DNA from: Granulosicoccus sp.
GTDB taxonomy: Bacteria > Pseudomonadota > Gammaproteobacteria > Granulosicoccales > Granulosicoccaceae
Length of the DNA: 39,403 nucleotides
Direction of reading: 5' to 3'
Assembly (NCBI GenBank): GCA_023300375.1
Contig: JALZWO010000036.1
Coordinates: forward strand, 1-39,403
Both the position numbers and the translations under genes were made by a program. Each line of letters starts with the position of its first letter. Positions within the stretch are counted from its first letter, which is position 1. Positions 17,052-20,950 of the stretch are shown in pieces. The notes beneath the pieces were generated by a model that had not been told where the DNA came from, made no database searches, and saw only the letters and a program-made list of their open reading frames with translations.

Positions 17052-17699
17052 GTGTATCAATTAACTCAAGAGACAATGCTCCTCGCATTAAAGGAGTTGG
17101 TAAGGCGTGACATCGTCATGGCCGACATGTTTGAGCGATATGGCGTTCCGCCGTTGTGGATACGTTCGCAAAGCTTTGCAACTTTGGTGCACATCATTCT
17201 CGAGCAGAAGGTGTCAATTGTCAGCGCACAGGCGGTGATGACTCGTGTACGTGATTTGTGTCCGGCAATGCAGCCCAGCCTTTTTCTGGATGTGCCAGAT
17301 GAGCTATACCGTGCTGCAGGTCTGAGTAGTAGTAAGTTATCGTATTGCCGATCGATCGCAAAGGCTATTGTCGGAGGGTCACTCGATCTGGCAAATTTAC
17401 AAGAGCTGCCGACTGATCAGATCATCAACTCACTGACTCGGATACGAGGTATCGGCCCGTGGAGTGCGGGTGTGTACGTAATGATGGTTCTTCGAAGATC
17501 TGATGCTTGGGCAAGCGGTGATCGCGCCTTGGTTGTTAGCTATGCGCAGAATGCTGAGTTGGATGAGGTACCAAGCTATGCGCAATTCGATGAGATTGCG
17601 CAAGCCTGGAGTCCTCATCGAGGCGCTGCTGCTCGCTTGCTCTGGCATGCCTACTTGTGTAAGCGAGCTAGAAAAACACCGAGCTATAACGCCAGTTAA
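17052..17699 (+). CDS. HhH-GPD DNA glycosylase, AlkA-like 3-methyladenine glycosylase
   Basis: A 215-residue base-excision repair enzyme lacking the N-terminal domain of E. coli AlkA. The helix-hairpin-helix is LTRIRGIGPWSAG (about 128-140). The GPD loop follows with D157 (SGDRAL) at the position of the catalytic Asp, so the enzyme should be an active monofunctional glycosylase removing alkylated purines. The start is GTG at 17052, with GAGG six bases upstream. It is divergent from the glycosidase gene, and its stop overlaps the convergent dsbD stop by four bases. Confidence 0.88.
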   Translation: MYQLTQETMLLALKELVRRDIVMADMFERYGVPPLWIRSQSFATLVHIILEQKVSIVSAQAVMTRVRDLCPAMQPSLFLDVPDELYRAAGLSSSKLSYCRSIAKAIVGGSLDLANLQELPTDQIINSLTRIRGIGPWSAGVYVMMVLRRSDAWASGDRALVVSYAQNAELDEVPSYAQFDEIAQAWSPHRGAAARLLWHAYLCKRARKTPSYNAS

Positions 17700-20182
17700 G
17701 TCTGTGGTCGACCTATAGCTCCCTCTATGTGTGTAGAAAATTTATCAGCGTTCATGAAGCCAACAACCCGTGCAGGTGTTAGTTCAGCGCCTGCAGAGTT
17801 GTAGAAAATAATACCTGGTGGTCCAAACAAGTCGAAGTGCTTCAGCAATTCCTTGTCAAGCTTATCGTTGGCTGTAACATCTGCTTGCAAGACGATGGCG
17901 TTGCTGAGTAGTTGTTGCACCCGATTATCAGTGAATGTGAAGGCTTCCATCTCTTTGCAGCTGATACACCAGTCGGCGTAGAAATCAAGCATAACCGGAC
18001 GGCCTTGGGCAGTAGCGTCGCCGATCACCTGCTCAAGTTCAGACACACTTTTGACAACTTGAAAGGGTAGGGCATGTTCGCCATCGCGGTGATCAGCAGC
18101 CTCACCACCACCGCTAGCGGTACCGGTGAATCCGCCCAGAGGCTTCAGGTAACTGCCACCTCCAGCCAGTGCGCCAACCAACAAAGCTATGCCATAGAGA
18201 CCAACAGCTATACCTGCAGTTTTGCCGATCATCTGCCAGTTATTGCCGCGGGTTAGGCGTTCAAAAGCGCCAAGGTAGACGCCACTCATAATCGCTAGCA
18301 ATGCATAAAGTGCCATTGATACTGAGCTGGGCAAAAAGCGGGAGAGCATGTAGATCGCCATGGCGATCATCAAAATGCCAAAAATATGCTTAGTCGTATT
18401 CATCCATGCGCCAGCTCTGGGCACTAACTTGCCCGCGGATGTGCCAATAAGTAGCAGGGGAGCTCCCATGCCCAGTCCCAACGCAAACAGCGCTGCTCCG
18501 CCAACCACGGCATCTCCGGTTTTTGCGATATACAGCAGTGCGCCTGCTAACGGAGCTGTTATGCAAGGCCCAACGATGAGCGTAGAAATGAAGCCCATTG
18601 CAGCAACCCCACTAAATTGACCACCACCTTGCTTGTTCGACCATTGCGTGAGTTTATTTTGCACCTTGGTGGGCATTTGCAATTCATAGAAGCCGAACAT
18701 AGACAGAGACAACACAACAAACAACATTGCGATGCCTGTCAAAACGGCTGGATGCTGCAGAAACGCTTGTATGTTGTAGCCCGAAAGGCCAACGGCAATG
18801 CCCACCAATGCATAAGTACTTGCCATGACAAGCACGTAAACCGCGGAAAGCTGAAAAGCTCGACCTGTGCTTACTTTTTCACGTTGTCCAACAATTAGGC
18901 TTGAGAGAATGGGGATCATCGGCAATACACAGGGCGTAAATGCCAGTAACAAGCCTAGCCCGAAAAAAGTGGCAATGGTTAGCCAGATGCTAGAACTGCC
19001 CAGAAGGCTTGTCAGGCGATCTTGCTCAGATTGAAGAGGCAGCGTTGGCGAATCTGCGACACGCAATAAGGCACCTGAAGCCGAAGCCGTTTCAGCTGTG
19101 GTTATAAGGCCGCCGCCACCTGAATTGGTAGCAATAGAACCCACCAAAGCTATTAAATCAGCATCAGAGGGGCTGCTTGTGCCGGCGCTGAAGCTTAATG
19201 GAAGCGTTGTCGTGGTCGGTGGAAAGCAAACACCAATATCAGCGCAACCCTGATAATTAATGATGAGTTGCCCGTTGGCTGGAGCCGCCTTTGCAAAACC
19301 AGCTACGTCTGCGCCACCAAGATTCAAGCGCGCATCGGCTGTGTCTCTGAGCACATGTACATTGCCAAAAAATTCATCAAATTGCTCTTGACCTTCGCTG
19401 ACAAACTCAGAGCTTACCGCCAAGCCATCAGCCTGTTCTATGCTGAAACTAAGCTTATCCCGGTATAGGTAATAACCGTCTTCTATCTGCCAGCGTAGTT
19501 CGATAGCGTTGTGATGGGCGCTAACTACTTGAGGCAGAAATGCCAGCTCGGGGGGCAATATGCTGTCAGTTTGGTTATCAGACTCAAAAAATTGTGTCGA
19601 TGATGACTGCTGAACCACGGATACAAGGCTGCTGCTTGCATCGACATCCTGTTTTGCCGAGAAAAGGCCACCGCTGTTTACAGGGGCGTTTGCGTCGGGT
19701 AAATCAACATCCAGTGCCACAGTATTGGGCGGGTAGCAGAGCCCGATGTCTGCACAGCCCTGATACATAATGTTCAGGGTGAAGTTACTGATTGATTGAT
19801 CGCTTTCGTAAGGAAGGACGATTTCAGTGGTGCCCCGAAATATCGCTTGCTCGCCAAAAAAATCATCGTTTATGGTTGTCGCCTCTTCGAACACGGGAGC
19901 GCCGAGCACAATACTTGCGCTGGCGTCTGGCTCTGCACCCACCGAGAACGCCAGCTTGTCTCTGTACAAATAATATTCGTCTTCGATGGAGTACCTAATG
20001 GTGATGGAGTTGCTCTGTACGTCAGTAATTTCTGGGGCGAAAGCAACTTCTGGAGCTAGAGGTTGAGGAGCGTTGAATAAATCCTCACTAGCCCACGCGC
20101 CGTGTGACAACAAAGGTGTCGTCAGTGTCAAAGCAAATATCTTGGCGATGCTGCTCAAGTGCAGAGTGTGAAAAAAATTCAT
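17696..20182 (-). CDS. dsbD: Thiol:disulfide interchange protein DsbD with duplicated N-terminal alpha domain
   Basis: DsbD moves electrons from cytosolic thioredoxin across the inner membrane to periplasmic DsbC- and DsbG-type proteins. With the start at 20182, which begins a normal signal peptide (the frame opens at a GTG at 20200), the protein has 828 residues. It shows two alpha domains, each with a Cys-x5-Cys pair: CADIGLC at C143/C149 and CADIGVC at C313/C319. The membrane domain carries FTPCVLPM and VGPCITAP. The C-terminal gamma thioredoxin domain carries the WCISCK active site. E. coli DsbD is about 565 residues with one alpha domain, so this one is longer by one domain plus linkers. 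Both alpha copies keep the YYLYRDKL and cap-loop (FFG) motifs. Confidence 0.95.
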   Translation of the reverse strand: MNFFHTLHLSSIAKIFALTLTTPLLSHGAWASEDLFNAPQPLAPEVAFAPEITDVQSNSITIRYSIEDEYYLYRDKLAFSVGAEPDASASIVLGAPVFEEATTINDDFFGEQAIFRGTTEIVLPYESDQSISNFTLNIMYQGCADIGLCYPPNTVALDVDLPDANAPVNSGGLFSAKQDVDASSSLVSVVQQSSSTQFFESDNQTDSILPPELAFLPQVVSAHHNAIELRWQIEDGYYLYRDKLSFSIEQADGLAVSSEFVSEGQEQFDEFFGNVHVLRDTADARLNLGGADVAGFAKAAPANGQLIINYQGCADIGVCFPPTTTTLPLSFSAGTSSPSDADLIALVGSIATNSGGGGLITTAETASASGALLRVADSPTLPLQSEQDRLTSLLGSSSIWLTIATFFGLGLLLAFTPCVLPMIPILSSLIVGQREKVSTGRAFQLSAVYVLVMASTYALVGIAVGLSGYNIQAFLQHPAVLTGIAMLFVVLSLSMFGFYELQMPTKVQNKLTQWSNKQGGGQFSGVAAMGFISTLIVGPCITAPLAGALLYIAKTGDAVVGGAALFALGLGMGAPLLLIGTSAGKLVPRAGAWMNTTKHIFGILMIAMAIYMLSRFLPSSVSMALYALLAIMSGVYLGAFERLTRGNNWQMIGKTAGIAVGLYGIALLVGALAGGGSYLKPLGGFTGTASGGGEAADHRDGEHALPFQVVKSVSELEQVIGDATAQGRPVMLDFYADWCISCKEMEAFTFTDNRVQQLLSNAIVLQADVTANDKLDKELLKHFDLFGPPGIIFYNSAGAELTPARVVGFMNADKFSTHIEGAIGRPQT

Positions 20183-20390
20183 GAATCCGGCTTGGCTCAC
20201 AGTAATTTGACTCGGTTAACAGATGTATTGCTCTTTAATAGCGGCTTACTCTGTAAATAAATGATCTGAAACTAGTTTGATGCAAAAACACCCCATTAGC
20301 AAATAACAAGCCGCGTTTGTGGGGGCATCTTTTGGCCTAGGTGCTGAGACGGATACGCAACTAAAAATTGAATTGATATCTCCAAACCCC

Positions 20391-20461: not shown

Positions 20462-20950
20462 ATGCCGTATTTATTAGTGCTTTTTATTGCCATGCCCATC
20501 ATCGAGATAGCCCTGCTATTGCGTGTTGGTGAAGTTTTTGGGTGGTGGCCCACATTACTCTATGTGATCGCGACAGCTATCCTAGGAAGCTCTATGTTGC
20601 GTCAACAGGGGCTGGCAACGCTGAACAAAGCCAGAACCAGAATGGATTCTGGTGAAATGCCCGCGCAGCAGCTGCTGGAGGGTGTGTTTATTATGATCGG
20701 TGGGGTTTTACTCTTAACACCGGGTCTAGTCACTGACTTGCTTGGATTTCTTTGCCTGATTCCAGTCACGCGCCAATGGGCGTCAGCCCAGCTTTCAACA
20801 CGTGCGTTTGTGGGTTTTTCTGGAGGAATGGGTGCTGCAGCTGGACCTTCCAGACAGAATACTGGGGCGTCTGGCAAGGTATCGCGGAAGGTCCCGGGCG
20901 GCGATCGGGGGGATATTATCGACGGTGACTTCGAGCGTATCGACGATTAA
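20462..20950 (+). CDS. fxsA: FxsA family membrane protein
   Basis: A 162-residue inner-membrane protein with a typical FxsA domain over residues 1-110. It has an N-terminal helix (YLLVLFIAMPIIEIALLL), a second helix after GWWPTLLYV, and the conserved hydrophobic GGVLLLTPGLVTDLLG segment. The C-terminal 50 residues are Gly/Ser-rich and polar. In E. coli the homologue (formerly yjeG) suppresses F-exclusion of phage T7 when overexpressed. As in E. coli, it lies close upstream of groES. Its normal role is unclear. Confidence 0.9.
   Translation: MPYLLVLFIAMPIIEIALLLRVGEVFGWWPTLLYVIATAILGSSMLRQQGLATLNKARTRMDSGEMPAQQLLEGVFIMIGGVLLLTPGLVTDLLGFLCLIPVTRQWASAQLSTRAFVGFSGGMGAAAGPSRQNTGASGKVSRKVPGGDRGDIIDGDFERIDD

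Follow-up and report, generated by a model that had tools for sequence, protein, structure and literature searches.

The dsbD gene of the window (the whole 39,403-nucleotide stretch of Granulosicoccus sp. DNA analysed here) encodes a DsbD with two distinct, conserved alpha domains, a variant of known DsbD that is common in Gammaproteobacteria. Disulfide isomerisation and cytochrome c maturation draw their reducing power from DsbD, and in the textbook protein one alpha domain chooses between the gamma domain and several clients. The E. coli protein is not the sole layout in its class, and a widespread two-alpha DsbD would allow mutations in the individual Cys pairs to probe how an alpha domain chooses its partners.

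The longest dsbD frame opens at a GTG (20200) and encodes 834 residues; an in-frame ATG at 20182 would give a protein of 828 (Table 1). Pfam assigns to it two DsbD_N domains, DsbD_TM (320.7 bits) and Thioredoxin_7, which agrees with the original prediction of two complete alpha domains in tandem. NCBIfam assigns the protein to protein-disulfide reductase DsbD, PRK00293 (714.6 bits; cut-off 330). In the genome search with DsbD_N, alpha1 and alpha2 score 87.1 and 82.9 bits, respectively (cut-off 25), and the gamma domain matches 2fwe with an E value of 2.3e-33. The predicted Cys-x5-Cys pair, YYLYRDKL strand and FFG cap are present in both copies, the pair lying within QGCADIGxC. Exactly eight cysteines occur in the protein, making up four pairs, one each in alpha1, alpha2, the membrane domain and gamma. 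The sequence hallmarks of DsbD are in place, namely an alpha domain with Cys pair and cap loop, the membrane cysteines and the gamma CxxC, and the departure from the textbook form is the presence of two alpha domains. Because alpha number varies within the DsbD family, a single alpha is not taken as defining DsbD. The two window copies are only 38% identical, so the second is neither a recent duplicate nor an assembly artefact.

Table 1. Features of the window dsbD gene and its product (window positions).
Feature	Position	Strand	Basis
dsbD	17696-20200	minus	Pfam and NCBIfam matches, frame reading
Putative signal peptide region, residues 1-37	20090-20200	minus	hydrophobic stretch read from sequence
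alpha1 (DsbD_N copy 1); Cys149/Cys155	19712-20068	minus	DsbD_N search, Pfam, AlphaFold2
alpha1 YYLYRDKL	19952-19975	minus	motif
alpha1 cap loop DDFFG	19853-19867	minus	motif
alpha1-alpha2 linker, predicted mostly disordered	19568-19711	minus	pLDDT below 50 in much of it
alpha2 (DsbD_N copy 2); Cys319/Cys325	19202-19567	minus	DsbD_N search, Pfam, AlphaFold2
alpha2 YYLYRDKL	19451-19474	minus	motif
alpha2 cap loop DEFFG	19364-19378	minus	motif
Linker from alpha2 to membrane domain, partly disordered	18989-19201	minus	full-chain model
DsbD_TM membrane domain; Cys424, Cys546	18332-18988	minus	Pfam
gamma domain, thioredoxin fold, WCISC (Cys745/Cys748)	17723-18073	minus	Pfam Thioredoxin_7; match to 2fwe

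In AlphaFold2 models, each alpha domain folds separately, with pLDDT above 90 in most 10-residue blocks. The tandem alpha model (mean pLDDT 85.4, pTM 0.52) falls below 50 at residues 152-165 and 167-173, and the full-chain model (mean pLDDT 82.9, pTM 0.60) is of low confidence at residues 136-174, 320-347 and 660-670. Across 120 proteins, the linker between alpha1 and alpha2 has a median length of 40.5 residues and is rich in A, L, P, G and S. When the PDB is searched with Foldseek, the 18 best matches are nDsbD chains, followed by 6c29, the N-terminal domain of ScsB. Together with the Pfam assignment, this identifies the second copy as a member of the same family as the first, as had been proposed, and not of another.

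The solved nDsbD structures from E. coli and Neisseria meningitidis (1jpe, 1l6p, 3pfu, 6dnv, 6dps) share their alpha fold, Cys pair and cap loop with the window protein; the gamma thioredoxin domain is alike by solved domains, and the membrane domain by family. The difference is that these proteins have one alpha domain and the window DsbD has two. By profile, the E. coli and N. meningitidis alpha domains score only +2.2 and +3.4 bits towards alpha1, as compared to a median of 17 for true alpha1 domains, and neither is clearly alpha1 or alpha2. The nearest solved tandem fold is the N-terminal domain of Proteus mirabilis ScsB (6c29), which Foldseek aligns over 298 columns (E 5.4e-7), at 11% identity and with poor superposition (TM-score 0.23, rmsd 17.9). 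Judging by the title of Furlong et al. 2018, this region of ScsB is reportedly a tandem immunoglobulin fold. ScsB has been likened to DsbD in the accessible part of one report (PMC8900818). PDB sequence searches returned no ScsB chain, and the best family model for the protein is DsbD. The open-access papers searched yielded no account of a DsbD carrying two redox-active alpha domains, although other papers may contain one.

Tandem-alpha DsbD is common among Gammaproteobacteria and is not an oddity. Within a set of 82 Gammaproteobacteria genomes (one per family, the window's own included), 75 have a DsbD_N match and 29 carry tandem DsbD_N domains in one frame, these being the window's own genome and 28 confirmed from fetched loci. 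Outside this class, none of 68 genomes (those of other classes among 90 drawn from the phylum) has a tandem, and 23 of them have a DsbD_N match. A sample of 370 genomes contains many more side-by-side DsbD_N pairs among the matches listed. Nearer to the window, a DsbD_N match occurs in 55 of 57 genomes (its own and 56 relatives). Two matches lie side by side in 22 of 26 genomes of the same genus; the remaining four (63, 76, 94 and 81% complete) have a DUF255-type or similar weak match only, a reading checked in the sequence for one of them (G021). The nine genomes from other genera of the family divide into four with a tandem, three with a single-alpha DsbD and two with a weak match only, so alpha number varies even within the family.

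The best 80 loci in a scan of named genomes are all tandem, which carries no information on frequency because the scan patterns were derived from tandem proteins. Their holders include Granulosicoccaceae, Xanthomonas, Luteimonas, Stenotrophomonas, Methylomonas, Thiobacillus, Thiocystis and others, with many metagenome bins. In the tandem proteins of Xanthomonas, Luteimonas, Methylomonas, Thiobacillus and others, a single frame spans both DsbD_N domains, and each domain has a Cys pair. In two Xanthomonadaceae proteins (L116, L129) the membrane domain is divergent, scoring 67 and 75 bits to DsbD_TM as compared to 321 in the window; its motif is MPCVLP...ACVVASPC, and the Luteimonas protein L098 has the usual motifs. 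Judging from these sequences, domain shuffling possibly joined tandem alphas to a divergent membrane domain in these two. In a plasmid search with 1785 matching records, both query pieces fell on one short stretch, as for a single alpha, in each of the 15 records inspected. The related-locus sets comprise 78 of 80 (A2, which mistakenly includes the full-length L099 row) and 45 of 75 (A3) eligible loci. The tandem-locus, linker and TlpA tallies leave out L256, L257 and L262, which have no alpha domain by profile, and the short frames L233, L265 and L266; L267 and L268 lie outside the analysed loci.

Both cysteines are kept in all 135 alpha1 domains, all 135 alpha2 domains and all 52 single alphas of an alignment of 135 tandem proteins and 52 singles (duplicates and frames below 400 residues dropped), counts that lean towards intact copies because L034-L093 were chosen from strong domain matches and one named-genome scan pattern contains the Cys pair, and that lean further in this direction everywhere because detection was profile-based. 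The Cys pair and cap motif are present in both copies at each of the 15 tandem loci examined (11 from the genus, 4 from the family). These observations bear out the proposed conservation of both active sites. No close relative was found in which one of the two copies lacks its Cys pair or cap loop, although three genomes of the family have a true single-alpha DsbD. A loss of C-x5-C in seven of 160 domains of the named set is only apparent: all seven keep both cysteines, spaced one or two residues further apart. The lengthened active-site loop (C-x6-C, C-x7-C) is found in alpha2 only (L162, L169, L149, L125), in alpha1 only (L156, L158, L135) or in both copies (L276).

A decayed second alpha was sought at 15 loci having long frames with one DsbD_N match, or weaker matches. 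Five of these (L174, L175, L176, L180, L181) matched the alpha profile and read as four upstream frame extensions and one long linker, with no decayed alpha among the five; the other ten gave no match to it. The family genomes with one match (G027, G030, G035) have true single-alpha DsbDs with no decayed copy. Both alpha domains are under purifying selection in most pairs tested. Neither alpha exceeds a dN/dS of 0.26 in 11 of the 13 pairs, similar to the membrane plus gamma domains, although some rows recur among the pairs and dS exceeds 1 for at least one domain in three or more of them, which makes those values rough. In L043/L061, for example, dN/dS is 0.15 and 0.13 for the alphas and 0.10 for the membrane plus gamma domains; L042/L067 gives 0.57 and 0.41, and L094/L096 gives 0.45 for alpha1, with the alpha2 value not computable. 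Mean column entropy is 2.10 for alpha1, 2.20 for alpha2 and 2.27 for singles.

The two copies are distinguishable across the class. Alpha1 and alpha2 profiles classified 259 of 270 held-out domains correctly in cross-validation. When any protein reaching 50% identity in either of its alphas was excluded from training, 256 of 270 domains were right and 134 of 135 proteins were correctly ordered, which indicates that alpha1 and alpha2 are distinct and, it would appear, long-standing. With near relatives excluded, the window domains score +11.1 (alpha1) and -8.0 (alpha2). Along the sequence, several of the most divergent columns fall close to the cap loop and active site. These include R at column 120 (87% of alpha1 versus 15% of alpha2), F opposite E. 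coli F70 in the alignment (72% versus 27%), D after CA (94% versus 45%) and Q after CYPP (58% versus 16%). The window alpha2 carries the alpha1-typical R, F and D at three positions, and the window alpha1 carries the Y more typical of alpha2.

Trees give a less orderly picture. The profiles separate the copies, but the domain tree has neither an alpha1 nor an alpha2 clade (8 and 15 changes, with 53 of 99 inner branches weak). In this tree the groups that contain the window alpha1 and the window alpha2 are close together, and many alpha2 domains group, weakly, with single alphas; among the 41 tandem proteins of an initial set, 30 have an alpha2 that lies, on average, nearer to singles than their alpha1 does. 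In a quick core tree of the membrane plus gamma domains, tandem proteins are scattered; the state changes 16 times, and starred branches force at least five of these changes. This scatter probably reflects an old duplication with repeated loss. Several duplications, repeated gain, transfer or exchange between copies may also account for it, consistent with the lack of alpha1 and alpha2 clades and the proximity of the window groups in the domain tree.

The single alphas resemble either copy. By profile, 37 of 52 are alpha2-like, 6 alpha1-like and 9 unclear; when each is compared by BLAST with the three tandem proteins closest to it (n=51, the single L231 being without a core), alpha2 is the nearer copy for 15 and alpha1 for 17, and the two come within 5 bits of each other for 19. 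Under both methods 14 singles are alpha2-like and five (L087, L092, L238, L239, L255) alpha1-like; eight receive opposite answers. The occurrence of both types suggests that either copy can work alone in some lineages.

In E. coli, according to the accessible part of PMC7347389, cytoplasmic thioredoxin reduces the membrane Cys pair, which reduces gamma; gamma (cDsbD) then reduces alpha (nDsbD), which reduces DsbC, CcmG and DsbG (PMC7347389). The same part describes exchange between the immunoglobulin-fold alpha domain and thioredoxin-fold partners, with the cap shielding the reduced cysteines. By analogy, the window protein is very probably a working DsbD that carries its periplasmic output domain twice, on balance likely as independent tethered shuttles operating in parallel. 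Electrons would pass from cytoplasmic thioredoxin to the membrane Cys pair and on to gamma, as in the E. coli pathway, and gamma would, we infer, reduce either alpha in turn. On flexible linkers, the two alphas would act as independent, cap-protected shuttles, each handing electrons straight on to thioredoxin-fold clients in the periplasm, for example DsbC and CcmG. This arrangement would derive from an old gammaproteobacterial duplication that many families have kept and others have cut back to a single alpha.

The divergence of alpha1 and alpha2 around the cap loop and active site makes partly different client preferences plausible for the parallel shuttles. A true division of labour, with alpha1 serving, for example, a TlpA- or CcmG-like protein and alpha2 serving DsbC or DsbG, is fairly unlikely. 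Consistent with it are the residues by which the copies differ close to the active site and cap loop (column 120, the F70 column, CA, CYPP), three of which, R, F and D, are nevertheless shared by the window's two copies. A TlpA-like gene lies directly downstream at 19 of 28 tandem versus 14 of 44 single loci (Fisher p 0.004, a few genomes contributing two loci). On starred branches of the quick core tree, with the long branches L193, L228, L249, L250 and L261 dropped, this link reduces to three independent pairs (sign test median p 0.5), so it is not significant there and was rejected as evidence for a dedicated client, though it remains a lead. In addition, the 14 single-alpha loci also have this gene, and the window dsbD is without it.

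A second alpha that merely raises the local concentration of shuttle for the same partners is unlikely. Such a dosage effect would fit two complete and similarly constrained copies, and single-alpha proteins of either type; simple dosage would not, however, need copy identities to be kept apart across the class. It is quite unlikely that DsbD output across much of the Gammaproteobacteria is shared out between anciently duplicated alphas with different clients, with single-alpha proteins such as that of E. coli being reduced forms whose one remaining alpha serves all. The two-step relay raised in the original prediction, in which gamma reduces alpha2, alpha2 reduces alpha1 and clients meet alpha1 only, is permitted by the linear order alpha1-alpha2-TM-gamma but is highly improbable, because single-alpha DsbDs resembling alpha1 or alpha2 exist and the long alpha-alpha linkers are predicted to be disordered, and because the alpha exchange described in the accessible part of PMC7347389 is with thioredoxin-fold partners, the cap shielding reduced cysteines, with no precedent there for alpha-alpha exchange.

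Downstream of dsbD, and convergent with it, lies an HhH-GPD-like glycosylase gene (a weak match, 25.1 bits; cut-off 26.2). On the other side, fxsA (20462-20950) is divergent from dsbD, and the genes beyond it are, as we take them from their sequences, groES and groEL. Elsewhere in Gammaproteobacteria, a TlpA-like thioredoxin gene (WATWCPPC) directly follows many dsbD genes, both tandem and single (L190, L191, L195 and others). The window dsbD is the single DsbD_TM match in its genome (97.5% complete), which also has one DsbC_N match and five DsbE matches, one of these above cut-off. The third DsbD_N match of this genome (L003, 1-1857 on C120) was rejected as a DsbD. It is a DUF255-type protein, Thioredox_DsbH-like below the family cut-off, with a C-terminal DsbD_N-like domain that contains a C-x5-C. 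Many relatives likewise have weak DsbD_N matches in frames of about this length, and the example read in G021 (L274) resembles L003.

Further DsbD proteins occur within the window's genus. One genome (G017) has a second tandem DsbD (L023 and G017:C194), and another (G005) has a second DsbD that is single-alpha and sits at a contig end (L030 and L275). Two short proteins, L025 (G012) and L027 (G014), each combine a signal-like stretch with a single alpha domain whose Cys pair is intact; they are free-standing DsbD alpha domains.
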